Source: Sandaracinus sp. (lineage in GTDB: Bacteria; Myxococcota_A; Polyangia; Polyangiales; Houyiibacteriaceae). From it: a DNA stretch of 45,145 nt. Shown here piece after piece: positions 632 to 32,021 of this stretch. Position 1 is the stretch's first letter. Each line of letters starts with the position of its first letter. A program made the translations under genes and the position numbers. The notes below the pieces were generated by a model, which was not told the origin of the DNA, made no database searches, and worked only from the letters and a program-made list of their open reading frames with translations. The DNA is taken from the NCBI GenBank assembly GCA_002699025.1, contig PABA01000184.1, forward strand, positions 1 through 45,145, read 5' to 3'.

Positions 632-1135
632 TCAGCGCAGCAGCTGCTGGATCTCGCGCTCCATGTCGTCGGCGTCGCCCGAGCGGAAACCGGCGTGCAC
701 GTAGCGAATCACGCCCCGCTTGTCGATCAGGTAGGACGAGGGCATGCGCGGGGGCTGGTAGCGATCGGCCACCTGGTGCGAGCCGTCGTGGACGATGCGG
801 AAGGAGACCGGCGTCCGCCGGAGGAAGCGCCGCATGTTGCCCTGCTCGCGGTCGATGTTGACCCCGACGATGACCAGCCCGTCGTCGGCGTACTCCTGAT
901 GGAAGCGCTCGAGGACGGGCATCTCCTCCCGGCAGGGGCCGCACCAGGACGCCCAGAAGTCCACGAGCACGACCTTGTTCCGCAAGGCCGAGAGCCGCAC
1001 CGGGTTCCCGTTCTGGTCCTCGAGCCCGATCTCGGGGGCGCGGCTACCCCGGTTCACGGCGAGGGCCGGCAGGGCGATGGCGAGGGAGAGGGCGGACGCC
1101 CCGAGGAGCGCGAAGAGGGTGCGGCGGCGGGTCAT
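632..1135 (-). CDS. TlpA-like periplasmic thiol-disulfide protein
   Basis: Predicted 167-residue exported thioredoxin-fold protein of the TlpA/ResA type, which uses a CXXC pair to reduce or exchange disulfides in the periplasm, often for cytochrome c maturation. The start gives MTRRR followed by a hydrophobic stretch and a likely cleavage after ALA (residue 26). The active site WASWCGPC puts the cysteines at 65 and 68, and the cis-proline is in RMPSSYLID (Pro132). AAGG lies just upstream of this ATG. In-frame ATGs at 1171 and 1177 would add 12 to 14 residues. The DsbA-like gene lies about 220 bp upstream on the same strand, so a shared envelope-thiol role is plausible. The exact substrate cannot be told. 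Confidence 0.9.
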   Translation of the reverse strand: MTRRRTLFALLGASALSLAIALPALAVNRGSRAPEIGLEDQNGNPVRLSALRNKVVLVDFWASWCGPCREEMPVLERFHQEYADDGLVIVGVNIDREQGNMRRFLRRTPVSFRIVHDGSHQVADRYQPPRMPSSYLIDKRGVIRYVHAGFRSGDADDMEREIQQLLR

Positions 1136-1359
1136 CGGGGCCTTGGACGGGGAGGGACGAGAAGCATTCATCGGCATGCTGAGACGGAGCATCGCGGCCC
1201 GACCGCGGTCGACGCAAGAGCGGATTCCCCGGCGCTCGGAGCCTGGCCCCCGGCGTCCGTGGCTCCGCCGCCCCAGTGCCGTCCGCGCTCCCGGCGCGTC
1301 CCGGCGCGGGCCCCCCGGGCTCGGGCGCGTCTGCGAGGCGCCGCGGCGCCCGCGCGCCC

Positions 1360-2265
1360 TCACTGCCGGGCGAGCTCCTCGGTGATGTACTGGCCGAGGT
1401 TCTCGAGGGGCTCCTCGAACTTCCGCCCGTTCACGAAGATCGTCGGCGTGCTGTTCACCCCGAGCTCCTGCCCGAGCGCCCGGTCCCGATCGATGATCGC
1501 CTGCGTCGCCTCGGCCTCCATGTCGGCGCGGAAGCGCTCCATGTCGAGCCCCAGCTCCTCCGCGTAGCCCTCGATGTCCGAGGGCGTGAGCGCGGTCTGG
1601 TGCTCGAAGAGCGTGTCGTGCATCTCCCAGAACTTGCCCTGGTTGCCGGCGGCGATGGTCGCCCGCGACGCGTCGTCCGCGTACTCGTGCATGGAGAGCG
1701 GGTACTGCTTGAAGACCATCCGCACCTGCCCGTCGAACTCGCGGACGATGCGCTCGAGCACCGGATGGGCCCGCCCGCAGAAGGGGCACTCGAAGTCCGA
1801 GAACTCCACCAGCGTCACCGCGGCGCCCATGGGCGTGCCGCGCACCGGCGAGTCGGCGTCGGGGATCTCGGCGACCGTCTCCGGGTCGAAGCGCAGCCGG
1901 TACAGCTCGCGGATCTCGTGCCGCTCGAAGCCCTCGCCGACGAGCCGCTTCACGTAGCTCGCCGCGTGCACGCAGTCGGCGCACTCCCGCCCTTCGTCGA
2001 TGCAGCGGGCCACGCTGACCGGGTCGCCGCAGGGCGAGAGGAGGTCGTTGACCTGCCGGATGAAGAGCCGGCGCTCGGCGCCCCCGAGCCCGCTCAGGTC
2101 GACGCCCTCGAGCTCCTCGATCAGCTCCTCGGGCTCGACCCCGTTCACCTCGACGTTCTCGACGAGCTCCTGCTCGGCGTCGTCGTCGCAGGCGGGCAGC
2201 GCGAGCAGCCCGGCGAGGACGAGGAGGCCGGTGGCGATCCGGGACCCGGGGCGGGGGTGCGTCAT
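1360..2265 (-). CDS. DsbA-family thioredoxin-fold lipoprotein
   Basis: A 301-residue protein with a signal peptide ending in a lipobox (LALPAC, lipidated Cys26), so it is probably membrane-anchored on the periplasmic side. Residues about 145-301 form a DsbA/Thioredoxin_4-type domain with active site CPFC (160-163), the sequence KQYPL typical of this family, and a cis-proline in NSTPTIFVNG. Between lipobox and domain lies an acidic stretch and then a segment with four more cysteines (79, 88, 95, 98). DsbA-like proteins of this type oxidise or isomerise disulfides in exported proteins. It sits upstream of the TlpA-like gene on the same strand. Confidence 0.92.
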   Translation of the reverse strand: MTHPRPGSRIATGLLVLAGLLALPACDDDAEQELVENVEVNGVEPEELIEELEGVDLSGLGGAERRLFIRQVNDLLSPCGDPVSVARCIDEGRECADCVHAASYVKRLVGEGFERHEIRELYRLRFDPETVAEIPDADSPVRGTPMGAAVTLVEFSDFECPFCGRAHPVLERIVREFDGQVRMVFKQYPLSMHEYADDASRATIAAGNQGKFWEMHDTLFEHQTALTPSDIEGYAEELGLDMERFRADMEAEATQAIIDRDRALGQELGVNSTPTIFVNGRKFEEPLENLGQYITEELARQ

Positions 2266-2353
2266 GACGCGCGGAGCTTAGTACACCGGCCCGGAAGTTC
2301 GAGCCCCGCGTGCGGTGAGCTCCGATGGGGCGCATCCCCGCCTACGCCCGTCC

Positions 2354-3160
2354 TCACTCCGTCGGCGCGCCGGCGAGGATCCAGTCGGCCACGAGGTCGA
2401 TCTCCGCCTCCTCGAGGGGCGGCTCGCCGAGCGGCATGGGCTCGCCCCAGGCGTGGGGATCGCCGAGGAGCTTGTAGACGAGGTAGCTCGTGGAGGGGCG
2501 CCCTCCCCCCGCCGTGACGTCGATCCGCGGAAAGCCGCCGAGCCCCCGATCGGGGTAGCCGACCCGCCCGCCGGTCTGCACCGCCGCCACGCCGAGCGCC
2601 GTCTCCCGGACCCCCTCGGCGCTCCCGAGGTCCAAGCCGAGGGCCGGCTCCGGGCCGCCATGGCACCCGGCGTCGGCGCAGCGCGAGGCGAGGAGCGGCG
2701 CGACCTCGGCCCAGCCCGTCACGCCCGTCTCCGGCAGGGGCTCGGGCTCGGCCTCGCCGGTCCAGAAGCGCACCTCGAAGGGCTCCGCCGGGACGCCGTC
2801 GAGGTCCCGCACGCCCTCGACGCGGAGCGTGTACTCGACGCGCGGAGCGAGCACTCCGTCGCCGAAGTCCCGGGCGATGAGCTCGGAGCGCACGGGATCG
2901 AAGCGCACGCTGAGGAAGCGCCGCTGGGGCCCGGAGCGCACCTCGACGGTGGCGCGGGTCACGGAGGCGGGCGAGAGGCGCCGGTCCCAGCGCACGCGGT
3001 AGAGGGGCCGGCGACCGACCTCGCGCTCGTCGGGCCCGGGCGAGGACTCGACGACCTGGGGCGGCGTGTCGAGGACCAGCCCGCCCCGATCGCAGGCGCC
3101 GATCAGCACCACGAGGACGGCGAGCGCGGCCCGACCACCACGGCGCGCGGCCGCGCGCAG
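2354..3160 (-). CDS. Cytochrome-like lipoprotein (Ig-like plus CXnCH); probable CTG start
   Basis: A lipoprotein (VLIGAC lipobox) with an Ig-like/SbsA-type domain (around VESSPGPDEREVGRR to VRFWTG), then a c-type cytochrome-like C-terminal region. The haem-type motif is expanded: CADAGCH, four residues between the cysteines instead of two. A late MPLGEPP could give a distal Met ligand, and the end DWILAGAP is typical of planctomycete-type cytochrome domains. No in-frame ATG, GTG or TTG precedes the signal peptide for about 200 bp. The only candidate giving a normal signal sequence (LRAAARRGGRAALAVLVV) is the CTG at 3160, so this start is an inference. It is paralogous in design to the lipoprotein at 16156. 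Confidence 0.78.
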   Translation of the reverse strand: MRAAARRGGRAALAVLVVLIGACDRGGLVLDTPPQVVESSPGPDEREVGRRPLYRVRWDRRLSPASVTRATVEVRSGPQRRFLSVRFDPVRSELIARDFGDGVLAPRVEYTLRVEGVRDLDGVPAEPFEVRFWTGEAEPEPLPETGVTGWAEVAPLLASRCADAGCHGGPEPALGLDLGSAEGVRETALGVAAVQTGGRVGYPDRGLGGFPRIDVTAGGGRPSTSYLVYKLLGDPHAWGEPMPLGEPPLEEAEIDLVADWILAGAPTE

Positions 3161-3312
3161 ACACCGACCGCCCGAGGGAAGGCCGCCCGGGGGAAGACCG
3201 CCCGCATCACGACCGCCCGAATCGGGGGAGCGTCGACGGAGGAGACGCGCCCGCCCCTCCGCGTGGAGAGGCGGGCGCCGATCGACCGAGGAACGCGCTA
3301 TGGGTCGCGTTC

Positions 3313-3567
3313 TCAGGACTCCGAATACATGCGGAGCTGCTCGCGGAGCACCTCCTCGTTGATGCCGGTGCGGAGGTAGTCCTTCAGGACCTCCGCCACG
3401 GTGATCATCATGTCGTCGACGCCCTTGTCCTCGATGAGCTTGGCGAGGAGGGCCCGCGACTCGCGGCTGTCCTCGTCGCGCAGAAACTCGCGCACCTGGT
3501 CGATCGTGATTCCTCCGTCGAAATCGAGGTAGATGTGTTCGATCAGATAGCGCGCCAGCTTGTTCAC
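3313..3567 (-). CDS. Small conserved-looking protein of unknown function (84 aa)
   Basis: An acidic, probably helical 84-residue protein with no signal peptide. The start is a GTG placed 7 nt after a clear GGAGG; the longer upstream reading has poor coding character. The sequence runs VNKLARYLIEHIYLDFDGG, with later segments DDMMITVAEVLKDYL and NEEVLREQLRMY. The family is not recognised by eye. It is divergent from the glycosyltransferase gene, the two starts being about 115 bp apart, so they could share a regulatory region. Confidence 0.75.
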   Translation of the reverse strand: MNKLARYLIEHIYLDFDGGITIDQVREFLRDEDSRESRALLAKLIEDKGVDDMMITVAEVLKDYLRTGINEEVLREQLRMYSES

Positions 3568-3682
3568 CCTGGTGCCTCCATGTGCTCGGGCCGACCACCA
3601 CTTGTAGTCGGCGGCCCCCGGGGATGGCAAGGGGAGTTTCGCGGGCCCGGTCGAGGGCTGCGGGCATGGTAGGATGGCGCCG

Positions 3683-5080
3683 ATGGACGCCCGCCTCCGC
3701 GTGCTCGTGACGGCGTTCGGCACGGTCCCGGGACCCAACTCGCACTCGAGCGCGTTGATGGGCATGGCGGCCGCGCTGCGGGGGGATCTCGACCTCGTCA
3801 CGCGCAAGACGCCGACCCTCTCGCACCAGGGCCGGCTCGGTGAAGCGCGCCTCTTCCGCGTCCGCTGCGAGGGGCTCCCGGCGGAGCAGCGGGCCGCCTT
3901 CGGGCGGGCCGTGAAGCGCCAGCTCGAGGCCGAGCCCTACGACGTCGTGCACGTCCGCGGTCCCTGGGAGGGCGAGTACGTGGCGCCGCTCCACCGGGCC
4001 ATGGGGTTCCGCTTCGTCTACGAGGTCGCGACCTTCCCGGACGAGGCCGAGGGGCCCGACGCGGAGCAGATCTGGGCCGACGCGCACCTCCGTTGCCTCG
4101 AGGAGGCCGACCTGATCCTGGTGGGCGCCGAGGCGGCGGCGCGCTCGCTGGCGGAGCAGGGCTTCGCCGGCAAGGTCGCCGTGGTCCCGCCGGGGGTGGA
4201 CGTGGACGCCTACGACTGGTGGCCCTCCCCCTTCGGCGACCCGGTGCGCCTGATCTACCTGGGCGCGTTCACCGCCGACCGCGAGATCCCGACGCTGCTC
4301 AGCGCCCTCCGCGCCGCCTCGAAGCGCATCCCCCTGCGCGCCCTGGTCGCCGGGGACCCGCACCCGGAGCGGCGTGAGAACGTGCAGCGGATGATCGACG
4401 CCTTCGAGCTCGGAGAGCTGGTCTCCGTGCGGGGCGAGCCCCGGGCCGTGGCGCTGCCGGCGCTGATCGCCGCGAGCGACTTGGCGGTGGTGAGCGCGAG
4501 CGCGACGCCCCGCTTCCGCGAGTTCGGCGACCTCCCGGAGCCGCTCCTCGAGTACCTGGCTTGCCGGCGGCCGGTGGTCGCAGCCGGCGTGCCCGCCGTC
4601 TCGGAGGTGATCCGGGACGAGCACGAGGGGCTCGTCTATCCGCCGGGGGACGAGACGACGCTGGCGGACGCGATCGTCCTGCTCGCGACCGACGCGGCCC
4701 GGCGCGAAGAGCTGGTGGACCGGGCCTACGACCGGGTGCGGGCGCGCTTCAGCGGCGCGGCGCGGCGGCGGCGGATCGCCGAGGTCTACGAGATGCTCTC
4801 GCCCGGCTCACAGAGCTGGGACTCCTGGACCGAGGCCTTCGACGAGACGGTCGAGTGGGCCCCGATCTCGTCGATGGTCGACGCGGACGACGTGGCCACC
4901 TCGGAGAACCCGCTGCCCGAGGAGCCGACGCCCGCCATGCCGCGCTCCGAGGACACGCTGGTCGGGGACTTCCCGGCCTTCCGCAACGTCGACACCTCCC
5001 CGGAGCTCGAGGTGATGGACCACTCGGACACGATCGCGCCCGGCCCGGACGTGGTGGTCGGACCGTCTCGCGACGAGTAG
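3683..5080 (+). CDS. GT4-like glycosyltransferase with acidic C-terminal tail
   Basis: A 465-residue protein with the two-lobed GT-B layout of family 4 glycosyltransferases, which move a sugar from a nucleotide donor to an acceptor. The N-terminal lobe starts at MDARLRVLVTAFG and includes YDVVHVRGPWEGEY. The C-terminal lobe holds VVPPGVDVDAY, VRLIYLGAFTADREIP, the donor-site region GDLPEPLLEYLACRRPVVA and GLVYPPGDE. After about residue 375 there is a ~90-residue acidic, probably disordered tail ending VVVGPSRDE, which is not part of the usual fold. The ATG at 3683 is preferred over 3674 because it is preceded by AGG at normal spacing. No other sugar genes lie nearby, so the acceptor is unknown. 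Confidence 0.9.
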   Translation: MDARLRVLVTAFGTVPGPNSHSSALMGMAAALRGDLDLVTRKTPTLSHQGRLGEARLFRVRCEGLPAEQRAAFGRAVKRQLEAEPYDVVHVRGPWEGEYVAPLHRAMGFRFVYEVATFPDEAEGPDAEQIWADAHLRCLEEADLILVGAEAAARSLAEQGFAGKVAVVPPGVDVDAYDWWPSPFGDPVRLIYLGAFTADREIPTLLSALRAASKRIPLRALVAGDPHPERRENVQRMIDAFELGELVSVRGEPRAVALPALIAASDLAVVSASATPRFREFGDLPEPLLEYLACRRPVVAAGVPAVSEVIRDEHEGLVYPPGDETTLADAIVLLATDAARREELVDRAYDRVRARFSGAARRRRIAEVYEMLSPGSQSWDSWTEAFDETVEWAPISSMVDADDVATSENPLPEEPTPAMPRSEDTLVGDFPAFRNVDTSPELEVMDHSDTIAPGPDVVVGPSRDE

Positions 5081-5316: not shown

Positions 5317-6576
5317 TCAGCGGCAGCGGGCGGCGAGCCCGGCGGCGTCGCCGTGGCAGGTGATGCAGGCCCGCGGGTTCCGCTCGAGGGCGGAGGCGCA
5401 GCCCGCGGCGAAGCCCGGCGGGTGCGGCGAGAGCCCCGCGCCGATGCCGGTCGCGCCGTGGCAGGCGACGCAGTCGCGCTCCGAGTGGCAGCTCGCGCAG
5501 GTCGTCATCGAACGCCGCGCCTCCATGCCGTGGGCCGCGCCGGCGAAGCCCGGCGGGTGGAAGGGCCGGCCGCTCGCCGCGGCGGGCGCAGAGACCGGCG
5601 AGAGCCCGAGGCGCGCGTGGCACTCGGCGCAGAAGCGCTGCGTGGTGTGGCAGGAGGCGCAGCGGGGCGTGTCCCGGCGGGCCTCGGCGGCGTGGGTCGT
5701 CAGGTAGTCGTTGCGGTGCACCCGCGCGCCGGGGGCGCCGCCGCTCCCGAAGCGGCTCGCCGGGCGGACTCGCCCGTCGTGGCAGGCGACGCACTCCCCC
5801 TCGTCGTGGCACTCCGCACAGAGCGGCCCCTCGTCGGCGGCGATCCAGCGGTGGCGCACGAGGAAGTCGCGATCGTGATCCATCCCGTGGAGCCAGCGCG
5901 GCGGGAGCATCTCGCCCTCGGGCCAGTCCGTGCGCAGCCGGCCGTCGGGCCGACTCAGGTGGCAGGTGGAGCAGGCCTCGTCCGCGCCCTCGGCGTGGGC
6001 CCCGACGCCGTCCCCGCCGTGGCAGCGGAAGCAGCTGCGCATCGTGGGCAGGTGCTGGCGCGTGGCGAGGCCGGCCTCCTGGACCCCGGCGTGGCAGTCC
6101 AGGCAGGGGACGCCGGCCCGCGCGTGCTTCGCGTGGGAGAAGCGGAGCCGCGCGGCGGGAAAGGCGGAGGCGGCGACGCGGAAGCCGGCCGCGGTGGGCT
6201 CACCGAGGTGGCAGGTGCCGCAGGTCTCCGCGCCGGCCCGCTCGCGATCGAGCGCGTCGTCGTGGCAGGGCGCGCAGGCGGCCTCCCGGGGGATCAGCCG
6301 GTCCCGCGCCGCCTCGCTCTCGCTCGCGCCGGCGTGGCAGCGCTCGCAGCGGAGCCGCCGATGGGCCGGGTGGGCGTGGTCCATGCGGATGGCGATGCGC
6401 TGGGGCGGGTAGACGACGCGGGAGCGGAGCGCGCGACCGGGCCGGCTCGCCTCGCCGGCGCCGGCGCCCCAGCCGAGCGCAAAGAGCCCCACGGCTCCGA
6501 GCACCACCGCCCCGCGCGCCACCGCCCTGTGCACCGCCGCCCTGTGCGAGAGAGCTCCACCGATCGCGCGCTTCAT
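5317..6576 (-). CDS. Exported 13-haem c-type cytochrome
   Basis: A 419-residue protein with an N-terminal hydrophobic segment (VLGAVGLFALGWGAGAG), which would export or anchor it, and 13 canonical CXXCH motifs: CERCH, CAPCH, CGTCH, CLDCH, CFRCH, CSTCH, CAECH, CVACH, CASCH, CAECH, CASCH, CVACH and CITCH. Many other histidines (for example HAHPAHRRLRC, FSHAKHARAG) could serve as distal ligands. The layout resembles class III/cytochrome c7-type multihaem proteins used as electron wires. Its ATG overlaps the stop of the upstream barrel gene (ATGA), which implies translational coupling. It probably moves electrons in the periplasm or through the outer membrane with that partner. Confidence 0.94.
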   Translation of the reverse strand: MKRAIGGALSHRAAVHRAVARGAVVLGAVGLFALGWGAGAGEASRPGRALRSRVVYPPQRIAIRMDHAHPAHRRLRCERCHAGASESEAARDRLIPREAACAPCHDDALDRERAGAETCGTCHLGEPTAAGFRVAASAFPAARLRFSHAKHARAGVPCLDCHAGVQEAGLATRQHLPTMRSCFRCHGGDGVGAHAEGADEACSTCHLSRPDGRLRTDWPEGEMLPPRWLHGMDHDRDFLVRHRWIAADEGPLCAECHDEGECVACHDGRVRPASRFGSGGAPGARVHRNDYLTTHAAEARRDTPRCASCHTTQRFCAECHARLGLSPVSAPAAASGRPFHPPGFAGAAHGMEARRSMTTCASCHSERDCVACHGATGIGAGLSPHPPGFAAGCASALERNPRACITCHGDAAGLAARCR

Positions 6577-8099
6577 CGCCACGCCCTCAGCGTGAGGGCC
6601 GCGAGCGCCCGCGTCCGGTGCCCGACGATCCGGTTGTGTGCCCACTCGAGCTCGAAGCGGAGCTTCGCGAGCGCGCCGAGATCGATGGCGCCGCCGAGCG
6701 CGAGGGCCACGGAGGTCCCGTAGAGGGCGCTCTGGAACGGGTGGTCGAAGTGCCAGAGCGACGCCCGCGCCCAGGCCTGCGCCCAGGCGAAGCGGCGCGT
6801 CGCGTCGAGGAAGACGGCCGCCGCGGGCGCCAGGTCGCCGGCCCAGAGCCAGCCCCGCGCACCCCAGCTCCAGCCGGCGCGCCGATGACGCAGCCAGGCC
6901 TCGCCGCCCACGTCCCGCTGGGTGGTCTGGCCCTGCTTCGAGCGGCGCCCCCGCGCGGCCCCGCCCAGGGTCCAGCGCCGGTGCCGCCCGAGCGTCGCGT
7001 CCACGAGGAGCTGCCCCTGATCGACCGGCACCAGATCGAACCAGGCCCAGATGCTTCCGAGGTCGAAGCGCGGCACGTGCCGCTCCACCCGCGCCCGCGC
7101 CGCGCCGCCGCCGCGCCGGAGCGCCACCTCTCCCATGGCGTCCACGAGCGTGCCGTCCGTCGGGTCCCAGACGGCGTCGGCCCGCAGGGTGAGCGGCTCC
7201 AGGGGCCGGCTCGTGAGCCCGACGCCGACCCGCCGCGCGACCAGCCCCCGGTCCCCCCGGTCGCGGAGCGCGCCGTCCTCCTGGAGCTCGCGGAAGGTCA
7301 GCCGCGCCTTCACGACGCGCGCGTCCCCGACGGCCACGCGCCCGCCCACGGCCCAGGTCGGCGCCGGCTCGCTGGCCCAGGGCACCCGCTCGGGCGCGAG
7401 GTCGTCCGGGAGCGGCACGCGCATGGAGCCGGGCACCTCGAGGCCCGAGCTCGCGAGCCAGCTCCCGTCGCGCACCTGCCGCCCGGCGTAGACCTCGGCG
7501 TCGACCCAGCGGTGCGGGCGGAGCTCGACCCGGCCTCCATCGAGGCGGAGCAGGCCCGTCACGTCGAAGAGGACGTGCCGCCCGAGCTGGATGCGGAGCC
7601 CGGCGACCGGCGCCCGGAGCTCCAGGACCGCCTGCGGCATGTCGAGGCGCGTCGGGCGGGCGAGGAGCTGGTGATCGCGGCGGGCGGCGACGACACGCTC
7701 GGCGAGGCAGCGCTCCTCGTCCTCGCGCAGGCAGACCTCGCCGAAGTCCTGGTCGAGGCGGAGGTCGAGGCGCACCGAGAGGCGCCAGGGGCGCTCGAGG
7801 TCCCCGGCGAGGAGCACGTGCTCGTAGCCGACGCGCTGCACGAGGCGGCGCCGCTGCCAGGTGACCGGGCTCCGCGGCGAGCGGATCTCGTAGGCGACGA
7901 AGGTCGTGTCCGAGTCGAGCTGCCAGCGGCTGCGATCGCGCGCGGGCTCGCGGGCGGTCGGCGCGTCCGTGATGCGCGTCTGGGCCCGGGCCGGGGCGCC
8001 GCCGAGGAGCACCAGCAGGGCGAGCCCGAGCGGGGTCGAGGCGACGGCGCACCGACGCGCGCCCTTCTGGCAGGCGGAACCGCTCACGCGACGGCTCAC
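6573..8099 (-). CDS. Outer-membrane beta-barrel candidate, partner of the multihaem cytochrome
   Basis: A protein of about 508 residues with a signal peptide (LGLALLVLLGGAPARAQ) and, from about residue 60 to the end, alternating amphipathic strands such as WRLSVRLDLRLDQDFG, AVLELRAPVAGLRIQLG and LTLRADAVWDP. It ends in an aromatic-rich strand pattern (ALAALTLRAWR). This is what an outer-membrane porin looks like, in the style of the MtrB/PioB-type or porin-cytochrome barrels that sheath multihaem cytochromes. The family itself was not identified. It lacks the usual two-cysteine signature of MtrB as far as can be seen. Start choice is uncertain: GTG at 8099, TTG at 8126, or GTG at 8087. It overlaps the cytochrome gene by 4 bp. 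Confidence 0.82.
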   Translation of the reverse strand: MSRRVSGSACQKGARRCAVASTPLGLALLVLLGGAPARAQTRITDAPTAREPARDRSRWQLDSDTTFVAYEIRSPRSPVTWQRRRLVQRVGYEHVLLAGDLERPWRLSVRLDLRLDQDFGEVCLREDEERCLAERVVAARRDHQLLARPTRLDMPQAVLELRAPVAGLRIQLGRHVLFDVTGLLRLDGGRVELRPHRWVDAEVYAGRQVRDGSWLASSGLEVPGSMRVPLPDDLAPERVPWASEPAPTWAVGGRVAVGDARVVKARLTFRELQEDGALRDRGDRGLVARRVGVGLTSRPLEPLTLRADAVWDPTDGTLVDAMGEVALRRGGGAARARVERHVPRFDLGSIWAWFDLVPVDQGQLLVDATLGRHRRWTLGGAARGRRSKQGQTTQRDVGGEAWLRHRRAGWSWGARGWLWAGDLAPAAAVFLDATRRFAWAQAWARASLWHFDHPFQSALYGTSVALALGGAIDLGALAKLRFELEWAHNRIVGHRTRALAALTLRAWR

Positions 8100-8174: not shown

Positions 8175-8207
8175 CGACGACGCCCCCCGAAGTGGGAGGC
8201 GCCGTCG
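8175..8207 (-). terminator. GC-rich hairpin after rnpB
   Basis: The sequence CGACGACGCCCCCC, a short loop and GGGAGGCGCCGTCG can form a strong stem directly after the 3' end of rnpB and before the barrel gene. It has no U-tract on the minus strand, so it may be a processing or imperfect termination structure. Confidence 0.5.
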
Positions 8208-8209
8208 GC

Positions 8210-8590
8210 CGGAGGGCTCGTAAGCCGAGTTCTGTCCCCGCGACCGTCACCGGCGCGCGGGTGGGGCTCATTCGTCTAGGGCCGCCGTCACCGACGGCCT
8301 CGAGCGACGCAACCCGGAAGCTCGGGCGGGCCACCCTCGAGCGCTTCCCTATTTCGCCTTGCACCGGGTGGGGTTTGCCGTGCGACCGACGTCACCGTCG
8401 GCCCGGTGAGCTCTTGCCTCACCCTTTCACCCTCACCGGGCGGCGCCGAAGCGCGGCCCGGCAGTCTGCTCTCTGTGGCACTTTCCTCGGGGTCACCCCC
8501 ACCAGGCGTTACCTGGCACCCTGCCCTGCGGTGCTCGGACTTTCCTCCCGCGGAGCCGAAGCCCCGCCGGCGAACCCCCGAGCCGCTCCG
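8210..8590 (-). ncRNA. rnpB: RNase P RNA (bacterial type A-like)
   Basis: The minus strand carries the hallmarks of the catalytic RNA of RNase P, which matures tRNA 5' ends. Near the 5' end is GAGGAAAGTCCGAGCACC, followed by GGTGCCAGGTAACGCCTGG, GGAAAGTGCCACAGAGAGC, GGTGAGGCAAGAGCTCACC, the block AGACGAATGAGC, and at the 3' end GGGGACAGAACTCGGCTTA. The 5' CGGAGCGGCTCG pairs with 3' CGAGCCCTCCG to form P1, which sets the ends used here to within a few bases. The length (~381 nt) is normal. It is transcribed toward the barrel/cytochrome pair. Confidence 0.97.
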
Positions 8591-8684: not shown

Positions 8685-9941
8685 ATGCGCCGCCCGAGGC
8701 ACCCGAGGGGTCGACGAAGCCCGCGCTGGGCCGAGAGCCTGCGCGCGGCGGGGCTCGCCGCCAGCCTCGCCTGTGGAGGCGCGGAGACGAGCGCACCGGC
8801 GGAGTCGCCGGACGCCGGCCCCCCGATCGAAGCGCCGGCCGAGCCCGCCCCCGCGCCCACCGAGCCTCCCGCCGCGCCCCCGCCCGCGGAGCCGGAAGCC
8901 CCCGCGCCGCCCCGCGCGGGCGAGACCGTCGCCATCCCCGCCGGCACGCTCGCCGTGGGGAGCCGCCCGGGTCGCCCCCACCGCCGCGCCGAGAACGAGG
9001 CCGACCGGGTGCCCGTCGAGCTGCCGGCCTTCGAGATCGACCGCCTCCCCTACCCGAACGATCCCGCCGCGCCTCCGCGCACCGGCCTGAGCCGCCCCGA
9101 GGCCGCGCGCCTCTGCGAGGCCGAAGGCAAGCGCCTCTGCACGGAGCTCGAGTGGGAGCGCGCCTGCCGCGGCCCCGAGGGCGACCGCACCTTCGCCCCC
9201 GGCGCGAGCCTCGACCGGGACGCCTGCCGCGAGGATCCGCTCGCCTGCGCGAGCGCCGAGGGCGTGCTGCAGCTCGGCACGCTCCAAGCCGAGTGGACGG
9301 CCAGCGACGGCAACCGCGGGCTCATGGAGGACCAGGCCGTCTTCCGCGGGGCCGCGCCCGACGGCGAGCTCCCGCTGCATCGCTGCGCCGCCCGCCGCGC
9401 CACCCGGCCGACGACCACCAGTCGCCACATCGGCTTCCGCTGCTGCAGCGGCCCCGCCCCCGAGGCCACCTACCCGACCGAGCCCACCGTCGCGCGCTTC
9501 CGCATGCTCGAGGTCGAGCTCGAGGAGCTCCGGCGGGTCCTGGCGAGCGTGCCCGAGCTCGCCCCCTGGGCGGCCGACTTCCGGCCCTTCGACGAGCAGG
9601 AGATGCTGCGCGCCCTCCCCGAGGGCGTCGAGTCGCTCCACGGCTGGGAGCTCGCCCCGGGGGTGCTCCGCTGGGCGCCCGTCGACGGCGAGCTGGCCTG
9701 GGTCGTCACGGGCCGGAGCGGCGAGGACTCGCTCGTCGCCGTGCTCCACCCGATGCCCGACGGGAGCTACGTCCACGGCGCGAGCTTCATCCGTGAGGGC
9801 GAGAGCGGCCCCATCGCGCTCGCCTGGACGCCGCCCTCCCACGGCGAGCTCCTCTGGAGCCCCTGCTGGGGCTGCCTCGCCGAGGGCGGCGCCGTCGTCC
9901 TCCGCGAAGAGGACCGCCGCATCGTGGTCGTGCAGCGCTGA
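8685..9941 (+). CDS. FGE/SUMF1-fold lipoprotein
   Basis: A 418-residue protein with a lipobox-like end of signal sequence (GLAASLAC, Cys30), a Pro/Ala/Glu-rich linker to about residue 75, and then a formylglycine-generating-enzyme-sulfatase fold. The segments VAIPAGTLAVGS, LSRPEAARLCEAEGKRLCTE, LEWERACRG, AEWTASDGN and SRHIGFRCC follow the family order. The RGG-type core and the catalytic cysteine pair of true formylglycine enzymes are not evident, so a structural or binding role is more likely than sulfatase activation. A C-terminal region of about 150 residues (from ATYPTEP) includes a helical stretch (VARFRMLEVELEELRRVL) and a domain not recognised. The last codons are duplicated downstream at about 10248. 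Confidence 0.87.
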   Translation: MRRPRHPRGRRSPRWAESLRAAGLAASLACGGAETSAPAESPDAGPPIEAPAEPAPAPTEPPAAPPPAEPEAPAPPRAGETVAIPAGTLAVGSRPGRPHRRAENEADRVPVELPAFEIDRLPYPNDPAAPPRTGLSRPEAARLCEAEGKRLCTELEWERACRGPEGDRTFAPGASLDRDACREDPLACASAEGVLQLGTLQAEWTASDGNRGLMEDQAVFRGAAPDGELPLHRCAARRATRPTTTSRHIGFRCCSGPAPEATYPTEPTVARFRMLEVELEELRRVLASVPELAPWAADFRPFDEQEMLRALPEGVESLHGWELAPGVLRWAPVDGELAWVVTGRSGEDSLVAVLHPMPDGSYVHGASFIREGESGPIALAWTPPSHGELLWSPCWGCLAEGGAVVLREEDRRIVVVQR

Positions 9942-10612
9942 GCCCTCCGGTCGGGCTCTCCGTCTCGGCGTCCGCGTTCCCTCGGCGGCGCAAGGAACGC
10001 CGAGTCCTCGCACCGCCGTACCCGGGACGGAGTCGCGCGTACGGCGCGTGAGATCGCGCACGGTCATGCGCACGGCCATACCCGGGACGGAGTCGCTGGG
10101 CAGCCACGTGAGATGGCGCACCGCCGTACCCGGGACGGATTCGCGGGGCAGGCACGTGAGATGACGCACCGCCGTACCCGGGACGGACTCGCAGAGCCAA
10201 CACGTGAGATGACGCACGGCCGTATCCGGGACGGATTCGCGGAGCCGGCCGTCGTCCTCTGTGAAGAGGACCGCCGCATCGTGGTCGTGCAGCGCTGAGC
10301 CCTCCGGTCGGGCCGCCCTCTCCGTCTCGGCGTCCGCGTTCCGATCCTCGGCGGCGCAAGGAACGCCGAGTCCTCGCACCGCCGTACCCGGGACGGAGTC
10401 GCGGGTACGGCGCGTGAGATCGCGCACGGTCATACCCGGGACGGAGTCGCTGGCCAGCCGCGTGAGATGGCGCATGGCCGTACCCGGGACGGATTCGCGG
10501 GACCGGCGCGTGAGATGACGCACCGCCGTACCCGGGACGGACTCGCGGGGCAGGCACGTGAGATGACGCACCACCGTACCCGGGACGGAGTCGCTGGGCC
10601 GACCGACGCGCC
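9891..10612. repeat. Tandem duplication (~360 bp) including the 3' end of the lipoprotein gene
   Basis: Sequence from 9891 (the last ~16 codons of the lipoprotein gene, its stop and the following spacer) through a five-copy 48-bp repeat block recurs from 10248 to about 10612. The offset is 357 bp at the start and 366 bp by the spacer, because of small insertions. The second copy keeps the gene tail and stop almost unchanged but has no upstream part, so it is a gene fragment rather than a gene. Confidence 0.9.
10015..10612. repeat. 48-bp tandem repeats in two blocks of five
   Basis: The core word CCCGGGACGGA occurs with its C-run at 10021, 10081, 10129, 10177 and 10225 (the last unit reads TCCGGGACGG), and again at 10387, 10435, 10483, 10531 and 10579. 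Spacing is exactly 48 bp except for 60 bp between the first two units, explained by a 12-bp insertion. Each unit contains CCGTACCCGGGACGG, an imperfect palindrome, and usually CACGTGAGATGACGCAC or a close variant. The arrays lie between two convergent genes. Confidence 0.95.
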
Positions 10613-10735
10613 ACCCGAGGCGAAGCCCCGACGAGGGAGTGTTCGCCGCGAGCGCCCTCGCCTCCGAGCCGTGGCCGTCCCGCCCGTCGCCGCCTCGGCG
10701 GGATCGGTGCACGGGCAGGGGCAGCTGTCGGCGGG

Positions 10736-25545: not shown

Positions 25546-26139
25546 TCAGTGACCCTGCTCGCGGGTCACGCCCGGGTGCGTCGGGTCGCCCGGCTCGTGC
25601 CGCGGGTTCCCCGAGAGGTACGTCCCGTCACGGCCCGGCAGGTTCAGGAGAACCTCCTTGCCGTAGAGGAAGTGCCCGCGCTCGGTCGACGGCGGCATGT
25701 GCATGCCCGTGTCCATGCGGATCGCGTCGCAGGGGCAGGCCTCGACGCAGTAGCCGCAGAAGATGCAGCGGAGCTCGTCGATGATGAACTTCGCCGGGTA
25801 GCGCTCGTAGCCGTAGCGCGGATCGTCCGGCTCGTACTCGGCCGGCTCGATGTGGATGCACTGGGCCGGGCAGGCCGTGCTGCAGCAGAGGCACGCCACG
25901 CAGCGGGGCGAGCCGTCGGCGCGCTGCGTCAGCCGGTGGATGCCCCGGAAGCGCGGCGGGTACTCCCGCTTCTCCTCCGGATAGCAGACCGTGGCGATCT
26001 CCTTCTTCTCCTCGGGACCGAACGTGTTCTTGAAGAAGCGGCCCATCGTCTTGCCGAGACCCTTCGCGATCTCCGGCACGTAGCTCGCCTCGGCGAGCGT
26101 GCGCTTCTTGCGTTCGAGGACCTTGACGCCTGCAGCCAT
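25546..26139 (-). CDS. nuoI: NADH-quinone oxidoreductase subunit I
   Basis: A 197-residue iron-sulfur subunit of complex I that passes electrons between the peripheral arm clusters and the quinone site. Two ferredoxin motifs, [15 protein letters not shown] and [16 protein letters not shown], each give a 4Fe-4S cluster (N6a/N6b). An N-terminal extension of about 40 residues and the C-terminal tail (ending [11 protein letters not shown]) frame the core. The ATG at 26139 has AGGAA upstream. It is the last gene of the operon here, so nuoJ to nuoN must lie elsewhere. Confidence 0.97.
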
Positions 26140-26165
26140 GAGTCGTTCCTGGGGCGCGGAGGGGC

Positions 26166-27575
26166 TCAGGTCCAGAGGAGGACCAGGATGCCCGTGACGA
26201 GGATGTTGATGAGGGAGAGCGGGAGCAGCCCCTTCCAGCAGAGCTGCATCAGCTGGTCGTAGCGGAAGCGCGGCAGCGTCCAGCGGATCATCAGCTGGAG
26301 CCACATCAGCACCACGACCTTGAAGAGGAAGAAGAGCACCTGGATGAGCAGCACGGCCCAGTGCTGGAGCAGGAACTGATCGGTGATCACCCACTCGGTC
26401 ATGGGGACCGTCAGCTCCCAGGTGCCGGGCAGGTCGAAGCCGCTCCGGTAGAGGAAGGGCACGTCCCAGCCGCCGAAGAAGAGCACCACGGCGAGCGCCG
26501 CGAGCACGACCACCTCGATGAACTCCCCGGTGAAGAACATGCCGAACTTCATGCCGGAGTACTCGGTGAGGTAGCCGCCGACGAGCTCGCTCTCGCCCTC
26601 CGGGACGTCGAAGGGGATGCGCTTGGTCTCGGCGATCGCCGCGAAGAGGTAGAGGATCGACGCGATGGTCAGCGGCGGGATGAAGAAGCCCCACCAGCCG
26701 TGCTCATGCTGCCAAGCGGCCATGTCCTCGAGGCGCAGCGAGTCGTAGATCATGAAGCAGGGCACGATCGTGAGGCCGAGCGCCACCTCGTAGCTGACCA
26801 TCTGGCTGGCGGCGCGGATGCCGCCCATCAGCGAGAACTTGTTGTCCGAGGCGTAGCCCCCCACGGCGGCGCCGATGACGCCCGTGCCCGCGGCCGCGAA
26901 GATGAAGAGGATGCCGACGTTCAGGCTCGCCACCTGCATCGGCACGGCCGTCGCGATGATCTCCCCGTCGCGCGGGACGACCTGGTCCCAGTACTCGAGG
27001 TAGAGCGTGTCCGCGAAGGGGATGACGGCGAAGGAGATGATCGCCGGGATGACGGTGATGATCGGCGCGATCGAGAAGAGGAACTTGTCCGCCTTCGGGG
27101 GCGTGAAGTCCTCCTTGAAGATCATCTTCACGGCGTCCGCGGCCGGGTGGAGCAGGCCGAGGAGCGCGAGCTTGCCGCCGCTGTCGACGATGCCCTTGTG
27201 GAGCTTGTGCCCCAGGCGGAGCAGCACGCCCGCGATGCCGAAGCCGATGACGGCCAGGTAGAAGGTCTCGGCGTCCTGCCCCGCCACCGTCTCGATGCCG
27301 AAGAGGCCCATCAGGACCAGCGTCAGGATCGCGAGCCCGGCCGCGAAGAACGAGAGGAAGACCCCCGCCTCCATCGGCTTGAGCGACGCGCGGAAGAGCC
27401 CGACGACGCCGCGGGGCAGCGGGATGTGCGCGCGGCGCGGCCCGACCCGGTCCTGGATCATCGCGCTCTGCCGGCGCTCGGCCCACACGAGCATGGGAGC
27501 GAAGGCGCCGACGACGACGGCGATGATGAAGAGGATCTTGAGGAGCGCGGCGAGAATGTGGCCGGAGATGTCCAT
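26166..27575 (-). CDS. nuoH: NADH-quinone oxidoreductase subunit H
   Basis: A 469-residue polytopic membrane subunit of complex I that forms the quinone-binding chamber with NuoB and NuoD. Family marks are [34 protein letters not shown]-type sequence (here [15 protein letters not shown]), [19 protein letters not shown], and [22 protein letters not shown]. The length exceeds the common 320-350 residues, with added sequence in several loops and between membrane spans. It sits 44 bp after nuoG and 26 bp before nuoI. Confidence 0.97.
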
Positions 27576-27619
27576 CAGGCGTGTCTCGAATCAGCTCGGG
27601 GAAGCGGCGGTCGCGGCCC

Positions 27620-29248
27620 TCAGGCGGGCGCGCTCGCCTGGGCCTCGTCGCCCGCGGCGGGGGCGGCGGCGTCGTTCATGGCGGTGCGCACCTCTCCGGT
27701 GCGCGCGTAGGCGATGCCCTCGAGGCCGAGCTCCTGGGCGGCGGCGACGAGGGTCTTCCACGCGGGCTCGATCCCCTCGGGGGACGGAATCGCGCGGACG
27801 AAGTGCTGGTCGAGCCCCTTCGCGTTGCGGAAGGTGCCGAACATCTCGGCCCAGCTCGCGACGGGCACGGTCAGGCTGGCCACCGAGGGGAGCGGCCCCT
27901 CGTTCGCGGTCAGCACGATGACGTCGGCGAGGTTCTTCAGGGCGTCGAGGCTGCCCTCCTTCTCGCCGCCGATGGCGCCGAGCGCGAGCACGCTCTTCAC
28001 CTGGCCGGCGAGCACGTCGCCGACGAGGTCCTCGAGGTCCCCCGGGGCCTCGCCGAGCAGGGCCTCGGCCACCGCCGTGGCGCCCGCGCGGTTCGGGTTC
28101 GGGTCGGCGTGGCGGAGGATGTCGTCGCCCTCCCAGCCGATGTCCTCGGCCTCGCGCGCCGCGAGGTAGACGTGCTTCACGCCGAGCGCCTTCGCGACCT
28201 CGGCCAGCACGAAATTGTCCTCGCTCGCGTGGTGGGCGCTGAGCACCACCGCCAGGCTGCCCGCGTCGAGCCCCTTCAGGCGCGCGGCGAGCTCCTCGGT
28301 GGCCTCCTCCTGGAGGAGCTTCTCGGCGTCCTCGCCGCGCCCATCCACGGCCGTGACCACCCGATGCTCGTGCGCCTCCTGGTAGGTCATCATGCCGTCG
28401 TCGCACATCCAGAAGCCGTTGACCTGCTCGTTGTCGCGCGGGCGCAGCCGGTAGACCTTGCCGTAGCGCGGGTCGAAGTCGACGTGCGAGTTGCAGCCCG
28501 TCGCGCAGCCCGTGCAGATCCCGTCGACCGTCTTCAGGAACCAGACGCGGGCCTTGAAGCGGAAGTCGCGGCTCGTGAGCGCGCCCACGGGGCAGACGTG
28601 CTCGGTCATCAGCGTGTAGCGGTGGTCGAGCTCCCGGCCGGGGGCCAGGACGATCTCGTTCCGGTTCCCCCGCTCGCGCATGTCGAGCACGTGGTCCCCG
28701 ACCAGCTCGTCGCAGACGCGGATGCAGCGCGTGCACATGATGCAGCGCTCGGCGTCGTAGACGATCGTCGGCCCGAAGCGCACGCCCTTCGGCTTGTGCA
28801 CGGGCTCGGTGCGCTTGCGCTTCAGCGTGTGCTGGTGCTCCTCGTAGTAGTCCTGGAGCTTGCACTCGCCGGCCTGGTCGCAGATCGGGCAGTCGACCGG
28901 GTGGTTCAGGAGCAGGAACTCCTGCACGTGCGCCTGGGCCTGCTGGACCTCCGGGCCGACCGAGTCGACCTCCATGTCCGCCTGGGCGCCGGTCTGGCAC
29001 GCCGGCACGAGCTTCGGCTTCGTGTCCGGGACGTACTCCTTCTTCTTCTCGTCCCAGCGCAGCACGGGCATGGCCATCTGCCGCCCGCTCGTCACGTGCA
29101 CGAGGCACATGCGGCAGTTCGCGGCGATGCTCAGGCCCGGATGCCAGCAGTAGTGAGGGATCTCGATCCCCTGTCGCCAGGCGGCGCGGATGATCGTGTC
29201 GCCCGGCTCGAAGGGGATCTCCTGGCCGTTCAGCTTGAAGGTCGGCAT
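27620..29248 (-). CDS. nuoG: NADH-quinone oxidoreductase subunit G, short form
   Basis: A 542-residue iron-sulfur subunit of complex I. The N-terminal 2Fe-2S domain includes HYCWHPGLSIAANCRMC and KLVPACQTG. The His/Cys cluster N5 is in HPVDCPICDQAGECKLQD, cluster N4 in CIMCTRCIRVCDE with CPVGAL, and a further cysteine group in GICTGCATGCNSHVDF marks the start of the molybdopterin-oxidoreductase-like part. That part is only some 290 residues, whereas many NuoG proteins run to 700-900, so the C-terminal domain is shortened. The ATG at 29248 is preferred, giving MPTFKLNGQEIPFEPG; upstream in-frame codons look non-coding. nuoE and nuoF are not next to it. Confidence 0.95.
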   Translation of the reverse strand: MPTFKLNGQEIPFEPGDTIIRAAWRQGIEIPHYCWHPGLSIAANCRMCLVHVTSGRQMAMPVLRWDEKKKEYVPDTKPKLVPACQTGAQADMEVDSVGPEVQQAQAHVQEFLLLNHPVDCPICDQAGECKLQDYYEEHQHTLKRKRTEPVHKPKGVRFGPTIVYDAERCIMCTRCIRVCDELVGDHVLDMRERGNRNEIVLAPGRELDHRYTLMTEHVCPVGALTSRDFRFKARVWFLKTVDGICTGCATGCNSHVDFDPRYGKVYRLRPRDNEQVNGFWMCDDGMMTYQEAHEHRVVTAVDGRGEDAEKLLQEEATEELAARLKGLDAGSLAVVLSAHHASEDNFVLAEVAKALGVKHVYLAAREAEDIGWEGDDILRHADPNPNRAGATAVAEALLGEAPGDLEDLVGDVLAGQVKSVLALGAIGGEKEGSLDALKNLADVIVLTANEGPLPSVASLTVPVASWAEMFGTFRNAKGLDQHFVRAIPSPEGIEPAWKTLVAAAQELGLEGIAYARTGEVRTAMNDAAAPAAGDEAQASAPA

Positions 29249-29428
29249 CTCGCTCGGTGGGTCTGGGCCGTCGGGGCCGTGGTCTCTGGGGAAGTCTCGA
29301 GGTCCGGTCGGGTCCGACGCCGCGCGGGAGGGTACTCGATGCGCCGTCGCCTTCGAAGGGCTCCGCCGCCGCCGGGCCATTTGACCCGAGCGGCGCCGTG
29401 ACGCAACGGCCCGGCGCGGCTCAGGAGA

Positions 29429-30649
29429 TCAGCGGTCGCACTCGCCGCCGATCATGTTCACGGAGCCGAAGGTGGGGATGATGTCGGCGATCATGTCGCC
29501 GAGCAGCATCTCGCGCGCCGCCTGGAGGTTGAACCAGCAGGGCGGACGCACGCGGCAGCGGTAGGGCGTGCCGCTGCCATCGGAGACGAGGTAGAAGCCG
29601 AGCTCGCCGTTGCCGCCCTCGGTGAAGGAATAGACGGCGCCCTTCGGGCACTTCAGGCCCTCCATGACGAGCTTGAAGTGGGCGATCGTCGCCTCGATGG
29701 TCGTGTAGACCTCGCGCTTCTCCGGGAGGACGATGCGCGGATCGTCGACGTTCACGGGGCCCTCGTCGGGCATCTTCTCGAGGGCCTGCTCGATGATGCG
29801 GACCGCCTGCCGGACCTCCTCCATGCGCACCATGAAGCGGTCCCAGTTGTCGCCGTCCGTGCCGACCGGGACGTCGAAGTCGACGTCGCCGTAGGTCATG
29901 TACGGGAAGTCCTTCCGCACGTCGTAGGCGACGCCCGTGGAGCGGAGCACCGGTCCCGTCACGCCGAGGGCGAGCGCGCGCTCCTTGGTCAGGATGCCCA
30001 CGCCCTGCATGCGGTCCTGGAAGATCCGGTTCTTGAGCAGCAGCCCCTCGGCCTCGCCGACGACCTTGTGGATCTCCGGGATGATCGCGCGGACGTCGTC
30101 CTTGAAGCCGTCCGTGGGCGGCGCGGCCATGCCGCCGATGCGCCCGAAGCTGTGCGTCATCCGGGCGCCGGTCTCCTTCTCGAGGATGTCCCAGATCCAG
30201 TCGCGGACCTTGAGCAGCCAGAGGAAGGGCGTGAAGGCGCCGAGCTCCATGGCCGAGGCGCCGTTGCACGTGAAGTGGTCGCAGACGCGGCTGAGCTCGC
30301 CGAGGATGACCCGGTACCACTGGCAGCGCTCGGGCACCTCGATGTCGAGGAGCTTCTCGACGGCGAGGGCGAAGCCGACGTTGTTCAGCATCGGCGAGAC
30401 GTAGTTCAGCCGGTCCGCGTAGGGGAAGACTTGGGCCCAGGTGCCGCGCTCGCAGCTCTTCTCGAAGCCGCGGTGCAGGTAGCCGGGCTGGACGTCGACG
30501 TTCATGACCGTCTCGCCGTCCAGGTCCAGGACCATGCGGATGGTGCCGTGCATCGCGGGGTGCGACGGGCCCATGTTCAGGCGCATGGGATCGGCGGGGA
30601 TCTCCAGCGCTTCGTCGTCCAGCTCGAGGATCTCGTCAGCGGGTTCCAT
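29429..30649 (-). CDS. nuoD: NADH-quinone oxidoreductase subunit D
   Basis: A 406-residue 49-kDa-type subunit of complex I, a relative of NiFe-hydrogenase large subunits that holds part of the quinone site. Signatures are MRLNMGPSHPAMHGTIRMV, YLHRGFEKSCE, YADRLNYVSPMLNNVGFA, and the ending GSVNMIGGECDR. AAGG is well placed before the ATG. It is separated from nuoC by 74 bp and from nuoG by 180 bp, with no fused C and D. Confidence 0.98.
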   Translation of the reverse strand: MEPADEILELDDEALEIPADPMRLNMGPSHPAMHGTIRMVLDLDGETVMNVDVQPGYLHRGFEKSCERGTWAQVFPYADRLNYVSPMLNNVGFALAVEKLLDIEVPERCQWYRVILGELSRVCDHFTCNGASAMELGAFTPFLWLLKVRDWIWDILEKETGARMTHSFGRIGGMAAPPTDGFKDDVRAIIPEIHKVVGEAEGLLLKNRIFQDRMQGVGILTKERALALGVTGPVLRSTGVAYDVRKDFPYMTYGDVDFDVPVGTDGDNWDRFMVRMEEVRQAVRIIEQALEKMPDEGPVNVDDPRIVLPEKREVYTTIEATIAHFKLVMEGLKCPKGAVYSFTEGGNGELGFYLVSDGSGTPYRCRVRPPCWFNLQAAREMLLGDMIADIIPTFGSVNMIGGECDR

Positions 30650-30723
30650 CGTCTGCCTTCAAGGAGGGAAATCGAAACGGTGCGAAAAGGCGGGGCGGGG
30701 GATCCGGGTCCGGATGGCCGGGC

Positions 30724-31443
30724 TCAGGCCCCGGCGGCCGTCTCCTCGGCGGGCGGCTCGTCCTTCTTGGACGCGAGCTCGCGCGCCTCTTCCTCGGCGG
30801 CGTCCGAGTCCGAGAGGCTCCGGCGCTGCCCCTGCTGGAGGCCGATCGAGGGCGAGACCTGCTCGTCCCGGCCGGCGAGCCGCTCCTCCCAGTCGATCCG
30901 AGCGAAGGGCTGGCCCTCCTCGATGCCGAAGGGCGGGAGCTTCAGCGTGTCGTCCACGTCGCGGTACTCGACGAGCGGCTGCACGCGGTCGATGGGGTAG
31001 TCCTTGCGGAGCGGGAAGCCCTCGAACTCCTCGTACATGAGGATGCGGCGCAGGTCCCGGTGCCCGTCGAAGCGGATCCCGAACATGTCCCAGATCTCGC
31101 GCTCGGCCCAGTTGGCGCCGGCCCAGACTCCGCAGAGCGTCGGGCAGGCCTCGCCGTCCTTCACGCGGGTCACGACGCGGACGCGATGCTTGAGCTCCAT
31201 GGAGCGCGCGAGGAGCACGACCTCGAAGCGGGGCTCGCCCTCGGCTTCGCGCTCCGGGAAGTCCACGGCGGTCAGATCGCAGAGCAGCATCTGACACTTC
31301 TCGTCGTCCCGGAGGAAGGTGGCGACCTCGACCCACTTCTTCAGCGGGACCCGCACCTCCTCGTCGCCGCGGAACTCGCTCGTCTCGAGGATCACCTTTT
31401 CCCCGAGCTCCTTCTTCAGGCGCTTGACGACCTTCTTGCTCAC
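30724..31443 (-). CDS. nuoC: NADH-quinone oxidoreductase subunit C
   Basis: A 239-residue 30-kDa-type peripheral subunit of complex I. It contains the family region ANWAEREIWDMFGIRFDGH with LRRILMYEEFEGFPLRKDYP. The N-terminus is Lys-rich (SKKVVKRLKKELGEK) and the C-terminal ~40 residues are charged and low-complexity (SDSDAAEEEARELASKKDE). It starts at a GTG that overlaps the stop of nuoB by 4 bases. Confidence 0.96.
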   Translation of the reverse strand: MSKKVVKRLKKELGEKVILETSEFRGDEEVRVPLKKWVEVATFLRDDEKCQMLLCDLTAVDFPEREAEGEPRFEVVLLARSMELKHRVRVVTRVKDGEACPTLCGVWAGANWAEREIWDMFGIRFDGHRDLRRILMYEEFEGFPLRKDYPIDRVQPLVEYRDVDDTLKLPPFGIEEGQPFARIDWEERLAGRDEQVSPSIGLQQGQRRSLSDSDAAEEEARELASKKDEPPAEETAAGA

Positions 31444-32021
31444 GACTCTCCCTCACCGCTCGGCGTGGTCGCCGTCGGGCGCGCCTTCTTGGCGCGGAGC
31501 TGGGCCAGGCCGGGCACCTCGCGCGGGGGCACGGTCACCGGCTCGCGGGTGCCCTTCTGCACCTTCTCCATGAGGAGCATGAGCCCGTCGAGGACGGCCT
31601 CGGGGCGGGGCGGGCAGCCAGGGATGTACACGTCGACCGGGACGATCTTGTCCACGCCCGGAATCGTCGTGTAGTTGTCGTAGAAGCCGCCGCAGCTCGC
31701 GCAGGTACCGAACGCGACGACCCACTTGGGCTCCGTCATCTGCTCGTAGATGCGCTTGAGAACGGGGCCCTGCCGCTGGCTGATCGTGCCGACGACCCAG
31801 AGCACGTCCGACTGGCGCGGGCTGAAGCGCGGCGCCTCGGCGCCGAAGCGCGCGATGTCGTAGCGCGGGGACGCGACGGCGAAGAACTCCATGCCGCAGC
31901 ACGCCGTGGCGAACGGGTACTGGAAGAGCGAATACTTGCGCGCCCAGCCGAGGAGCGCGTCGAGCTTGGTGGTGATGATCCCTTCGGAGAGATTCCCACC
32001 GACGACCTTCATTTCTCCCAT
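31440..32021 (-). CDS. nuoB: NADH-quinone oxidoreductase subunit B
   Basis: A 193-residue subunit carrying cluster N2, the last iron-sulfur centre before quinone. The ligands sit in FATACCGMEF, GTCASCGG and IPGCPPRPE. Two starts are close: ATG 32021 with AAGGGAG at good spacing (used here, overlapping nuoA by 13 bp), or ATG 32012 with the usual 4-bp overlap. The C-terminus (KKARPTATTPSGEGES) extends past the core. Confidence 0.97.
   Translation of the reverse strand: MGEMKVVGGNLSEGIITTKLDALLGWARKYSLFQYPFATACCGMEFFAVASPRYDIARFGAEAPRFSPRQSDVLWVVGTISQRQGPVLKRIYEQMTEPKWVVAFGTCASCGGFYDNYTTIPGVDKIVPVDVYIPGCPPRPEAVLDGLMLLMEKVQKGTREPVTVPPREVPGLAQLRAKKARPTATTPSGEGES

Follow-up and report, generated by a model that had tools for sequence, protein, structure and literature searches.

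The locus considered here raises the question of whether two overlapping genes, one for a multihaem cytochrome and one for a predicted outer-membrane protein, could together carry electrons across the outer membrane of a Sandaracinus species. To our knowledge, extracellular electron exchange is not usually attributed to the class of soil myxobacteria to which this organism belongs. The two genes lie on a stretch of 45,145 nucleotides (the window), which is one entire contig within a 9.24-Mb genome. Judged by the anatomy of the pair, its conservation and the coupling of its genes, the two genes quite likely specify a porin-cytochrome (Pcc) conduit for electrons through the outer membrane, with no dedicated outer cytochrome gene beside it. 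The features that bear on this reading are the following:

5317..6576, minus strand: 13-haem c-type cytochrome of 419 aa (CXXCH count, Cytochrome_C7 matches), the proposed electron wire
6202..6399, minus strand: triheme c7-type module 1 of the cytochrome, approximately residues 60-125 (PF14522 and GSU1996 (3ov0) profile match)
5953..6150, minus strand: triheme c7-type module 2, approximately residues 143-208 (PF14522; H148 and H151 invariant)
5341..5895, minus strand: heptahaem module, approximately residues 228-412 (three doubled CXXCH pairs plus one)
6573..8099, minus strand: predicted outer-membrane beta-barrel protein of 508 aa with a signal peptide ending ARA|Q, the proposed sheath of the conduit
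8207..8589, minus strand: RNase P RNA, class A (Rfam, 261.6 bits), conserved context without a functional part in the proposal

The first-pass annotation described 13 CXXCH motifs in an exported protein of 419 residues, and exactly 13 were counted in the frame at 5317-6576. The overlap that it reported between the cytochrome ATG and the stop of a signal-peptide protein is likewise present, as an ATGA shared by the two genes at 6573-6576 on the minus strand. The start of the barrel gene is uncertain among GTG 8099, TTG 8126 and GTG 8087. This gene is single-copy in the genome. No plasmid-borne copy was found. The RNase P RNA gene is found upstream of the barrel gene, on the same strand, in seven of nine relatives scanned (L004-L006, L047, L049, L051, L053).

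The CXXCH motifs of the cytochrome start at residues 77, 101, 119, 158, 182, 202, 253, 262, 306, 316, 360, 369 and 404, and all 13 are conserved at 98-100% in an alignment of 50 relatives. Shuffling the residues of the protein 20,000 times gave a mean of 0.13 motifs and a maximum of 3, and a count over all six reading frames of the 45-kb window gives only 15. The layout is that of two triheme c7-type modules followed by a C-terminal heptahaem module. The N-terminal half has a profile match to GSU1996 (3ov0) with an E value of 1.7e-40, and the c7 modules have three invariant histidines (H67, H148 and H151) as well as M179, which is present in 43 of the 50 relatives. A profile search of structures yielded no solved homologue covering the heptahaem module. 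In this module, the same 50 relatives preserve exactly seven invariant histidines outside the motifs (234, 242, 287, 295, 340, 349 and 385), or one per haem, which argues for bis-His, electron-conducting haems. An AlphaFold2 model of the cytochrome is of low confidence (pLDDT 36), and this counts against the conduit reading.

Three relatives in family f26 (L086-L088) have lost both c7 modules and are left with seven haems, with a barrel of the same family still upstream; on sequence grounds, this suggests that they represent a possible minimal wire or conduit. An apparent loss of haems in the L082 cytochrome proved to be an artefact of gene calling, as the full frame has 13.

For the upstream protein, an AlphaFold2 model based on a four-sequence alignment consists of 22 long antiparallel strands (pLDDT 63.9, pTM 0.51). 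Foldseek returned 107 matches at E<=0.001, and those listed, like the VIA-align matches listed, are all outer-membrane beta-barrels (porins, ushers and transporters). The identification of this protein as a barrel, made earlier from its amphipathic strands, is thus supported by prediction, and the model is adequate for a barrel, with strand number and closure uncertain. No Pfam or NCBIfam family was found for the protein, and a generic outer-membrane barrel model was matched weakly by three of 36 barrel relatives.

The first-pass annotation also placed the barrel outside the known MtrB family, and this is upheld. Neither the barrel nor any of its 36 relatives has a Pfam match to MtrB_PioB (PF11854), and no match to this family was found anywhere in the genome. 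An hhalign comparison of the barrel family with MtrB_PioB gave a probability of 13.7%, and MtrB proteins from the same phylum score E>0.2 in hmmsearch against a profile of the barrel family. Membership in MtrB_PioB was therefore rejected, and assignment of the barrel to a family distinct from MtrB is supported by these sequence comparisons. MtrB-type entries are also missing from the Foldseek and VIA-align matches listed, which carries no weight as evidence. Since the barrel has no Pfam or NCBIfam model, pairs of this kind would be overlooked by surveys that use MtrB or OmcA/MtrC models.

The cytochrome is widespread in Myxococcota. At a threshold of E<=1e-10, it was counted in 165 of 379 sampled genomes of the phylum and in 87 of 105 from the class to which the window belongs (10 of 18 in its own family, 47 of 54 in other families of its order and 30 of 33 in other orders of the class), counts that include a few members of a sister clade described below. 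A scan of contigs for the cytochrome recovered close relatives only, and the three that are named come from Myxococcota or 'Deltaproteobacteria' assemblies. This kinship places the window in Myxococcota and, probably, in the class Polyangia. Across the phylum, a gene of barrel length lies upstream of the cytochrome on the same strand, mostly with an overlap of 1-10 bases. A profile of 36 barrels, compared with every protein called at the loci retrieved, matched at E<1e-3 solely the gene that immediately precedes the cytochrome, with values of 1e-6 to 1e-21 at distant loci. In the family that includes the window, there are eight strong barrel matches, all at cytochrome loci, and the barrel is single-copy. 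The distances among barrels and among cytochromes are correlated at r=0.89, a value that is partly due to shared species history, and no permutation exceeded 0.22. By sequence comparison, barrel and cytochrome form an old and conserved pair.

When a distant relative (L094) served as the query, a second clade of the barrel-cytochrome pair emerged as sister to that of the window, split off by a branch with 100/100 support. The cytochromes in this sister clade contain 12-13 haems, and most have a lipobox-type N-terminus. The neighbourhood counts depend on a home-made gene caller. By these counts, the pair has further multihaem genes close by, a few genes away at most, in 21 of the 22 sister-clade loci with a recognised barrel, the 22nd being truncated by the end of its contig, whereas at none of 54 loci in the clade of the window (clade A) does any neighbour carry at least three haems. 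At the 21 loci, the largest multihaem neighbour has 9-34 haems, with one exception, and several multihaem neighbours begin with a lipoprotein and collagen-like sequence, comparable to OmcA/MtrC-type proteins. At the L089 locus, Rieske and cytochrome b genes adjoin the pair. Three further sister-clade loci (L141, L152 and L153) contain no match to the barrel profile at 1e-3. Judged by gene content, the sister-clade loci look like complete three-part Pcc loci. Both clades are present in many genomes of the class, and the genome studied here has the solitary clade alone. Given that the sister pairs are found amid multihaem genes and that clade A has none in 54 loci, the pair in the window can be read as a homologue of conduit genes that is specialised for solo work. 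The porin-cytochrome interpretation offered in the first-pass annotation is supported by the predicted barrel, by phylum-wide adjacency and by homologous pairs beside outer multihaem lipoproteins. Small membrane-anchored cytochromes are sometimes found as well in the sister-clade loci (L142-L160, L089, L091, L092, L094 and L095).

Known Pcc systems combine a porin of 18-22 predicted strands with a periplasmic cytochrome of 5-14 haem motifs, and most of their clusters include an outer-membrane cytochrome gene, which is absent from the two-gene clusters of Anaeromyxobacter and Kuenenia (PMC4245776). With 13 motifs, the window cytochrome falls within the haem range, and its barrel has 22 strands in a model of modest confidence (pLDDT 64). 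An outer-membrane cytochrome gene was found at none of the 54 clade A loci, including the window, and this absence counts against the conduit reading. The closest known system, compared by description, is the Group IV two-gene pcc of Anaeromyxobacter (for example, Adeh_3392), which the pair resembles in its phylum, in the adjacency of a porin-like gene and a periplasmic cytochrome gene and in the lack of an outer cytochrome gene; the Anaeromyxobacter cytochromes have 338-344 aa, versus 419 in the window. These clusters have predicted cytochromes of 12-14 haems, and Shi et al. (2014) argue that they might span the membrane alone (PMC4245776).

Other systems are more distant. The Geobacter Pcc systems (OmbB-OmaB-OmcB and Ext) share, by description, a barrel smaller than MtrB and a periplasmic multihaem cytochrome, but OmaB has 8 haems rather than 13, and the window pair has no adjacent outer lipoprotein cytochrome. 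MtrAB, PioAB and MtoAB share adjacent genes and the concept of a barrel-sheathed multihaem cytochrome, with 10 haems and 26 strands against 13 haems and, in a modest model, about 22 strands here. The window cytochrome is not of the decahaem MtrA type, and its A4-A6 match (98%) rests mainly on haem motifs. The triheme c7 modules of GSU1996, a dodecahaem c7 'nanowire' of Geobacter sulfurreducens, align to the two N-terminal modules, but the window protein is not c7 throughout (its first six haems match) and is coupled to a barrel. Classic MtrA/MtrB pairs, with a decahaem cytochrome and an MtrB_PioB barrel, are found in other Myxococcota families (L106-L111), and 27 of the 379 genomes are above the cut-off for them.

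Insertion in the barrel, electron flow, its direction and the extracellular partner are what we infer beyond the genes themselves. The 508-aa protein would fold into a beta-barrel with some 22 strands and take up the 13-haem cytochrome, and electrons would pass between the periplasm and the cell surface. The heptahaem module is probably the portion within the barrel, and the two triheme c7 modules probably extend into the periplasm toward soluble carriers, such that electrons might come in from these carriers at the c7 modules and exit from the surface-facing end of the heptahaem module. In its 26-strand barrel, MtrA covers 80 angstrom by means of ten haems (PMC7198977), and by that yardstick a 13-haem chain would be sufficiently long. 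Flow in the outward direction, from quinol via alternative complex III, is a guess that is favoured only slightly over inward flow.

An inward conduit, in which extracellular donors such as Fe(II), reduced humics or partner cells would feed the respiratory chain by way of a periplasmic carrier, in the manner of PioAB or MtoAB, is a somewhat unlikely alternative that nevertheless has several points in its favour, as the anatomy of the pair is symmetric with respect to direction and no quinol dehydrogenase of the CymA/NapC type was detected in the genome. Fe(II)-oxidizing Mto and Pio systems also include two-gene conduits that lack an outer cytochrome. MtoAB itself is an Fe(II)-oxidizing two-gene conduit (PMC12016527). 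Outward flow is favoured by the large multihaem genes that the sister clade accompanies, by the Rieske and cytochrome b genes at L089, which constitute a quinol-oxidizing, outward arrangement, and by the Anaeromyxobacter pcc cytochrome Adeh_3392, which is more abundant during Mn(IV) reduction (PMC4245776). A different partner, rather than a different direction, is considered in the proposal that the conduit serves a specific extracellular redox enzyme or lipoprotein instead of minerals or humics, which seems improbable. The genes downstream of the cytochrome are the following:

3674..5080, plus strand: group 1 glycosyltransferase, between the cytochrome and the 84-aa gene, a mere neighbour
3313..3567, minus strand: 84-aa protein with no Pfam family above cut-off, conserved downstream at many loci in the order
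2354..3112, minus strand: Ig-like protein (Big_5-type, below cut-off) with an N-terminal lipobox-like cysteine and one CX4CH
1360..2265, minus strand: DsbA-like thioredoxin-fold lipoprotein, a conserved neighbour in some relatives
632..1135, minus strand: TlpA/redoxin-like exported thioredoxin, a conserved neighbour in some relatives

The block at 632-3567, which consists of the 84-aa, Ig-like CX4CH (or CXXCH), DsbA-like and TlpA-like proteins, is kept in several families of the order, and the conservation there of the 84-aa protein together with a CX4CH or CXXCH lipoprotein makes the Ig-like protein a possible redox partner of the conduit. The block is absent, though, from the closest relatives (L004-L006 and L046) and from the majority of other classes, and is thus not essential; a place for the lipoprotein at the cell surface is, moreover, putative. 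The two remaining alternatives dispense with a conduit. In one of these, the cytochrome would store or relay electrons in the periplasm, on the pattern of Geobacter GSU1996, and would be co-transcribed by chance with an ordinary porin or exporter. The c7 match of its N-terminal half is in keeping with this, but the barrel occurs solely with the cytochrome, the genes mostly overlap or nearly do so, and the barrel persists where the c7 modules are lost and the heptahaem module alone is left, so that we regard this explanation as distinctly unlikely. In the other, the cytochrome would belong to a known periplasmic enzyme (a nitrite, hydroxylamine or sulfite reductase, or Qrc), as might be suggested by weak similarity to NrfA, HAO and QrcA near the haem motifs. 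The QrcA score is 24 bits versus a curated cut-off of 180, no recognisable enzyme subunit gene adjoins the clade A loci, and the last seven haems have invariant histidine partners with no sign of a catalytic site. An identity as QrcA or a reductase was accordingly rejected, and assignment to a periplasmic nitrite, sulfite or quinol pathway, which the first-pass annotation had named as a result that would overturn its proposal, is highly improbable.

The conduit reading also has to be set against the redox proteins encoded elsewhere in the genome. The OmcA/MtrC model TIGR03507 matched no protein there, so the MtrC-like outer cytochrome that the first-pass annotation had thought worth seeking was not found. 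Nor was a quinol dehydrogenase of the CymA/NapC type, which counts against a conduit. The ActA subunit of alternative complex III is encoded (C13) and, because no NapC/CymA-type protein was found, this complex is the likely quinol side. The inventory of multihaem proteins covers 100 of 241 CXXCH places, may therefore be incomplete, and contains at least a 4-haem protein (C35), two 5-haem proteins (C236 and C116), an 8-haem protein (C211), ActA and a 4-haem lipoprotein (C168); the genome total of CXXCH equals that of a reversed-pattern control. These proteins were considered as outer partners. The C168 lipoprotein is present in only 10 of the 379 genomes and would thus be at most accessory. Nine of these 10 genomes also have the 13-haem cytochrome.

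If the pair conducts, trans-outer-membrane electron transfer in this phylum would extend beyond a few metal reducers to nearly all members of a large soil and sediment class. The pair is remarkable for its near-universal occurrence in a class that is not otherwise associated with extracellular electron transfer; full-text searches, made within open-access papers, turned up none on such pairs in this class. The surprise that the first-pass annotation expressed at the lineage accordingly holds for the class and does not extend to the phylum, since Anaeromyxobacter was already known to have two-gene pcc clusters (PMC4245776). The solitary clade and the sister clade with its outer cytochromes offer a natural contrast for the role of the outer cytochrome. 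A broader reading, to which an even chance is given as a whole, is that most members of this supposedly aerobic and predatory class retain an ancestral stand-alone wire, made of its own barrel family and a 13-haem cytochrome of new architecture, that many of them have a second, complete conduit with giant outer cytochromes as well, and that electron exchange with the surroundings is a core and overlooked trait.

Several minor observations were made alongside the analysis of the pair. The C168 lipoprotein (L116, 1360-3207, minus strand) has 616 aa, with four CXXCH motifs, one CX3CH and N-terminal non-haem domains, and the C211 protein (L112, 472-2415, plus strand) has 647 aa and eight CXXCH motifs and is followed by a membrane protein. 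Within the window, a run of genes resembling those of NADH dehydrogenase (complex I) subunits by sequence occupies 25546-32368 on the minus strand. A tandem short repeat, translated as SVPGTAVRHLT / RPGYGGASSH, lies between two genes at approximately 9787-10614, and further short repeats, which read ERASAMRTSPKRRPRG in translation, are found at the window edge at 93-621.
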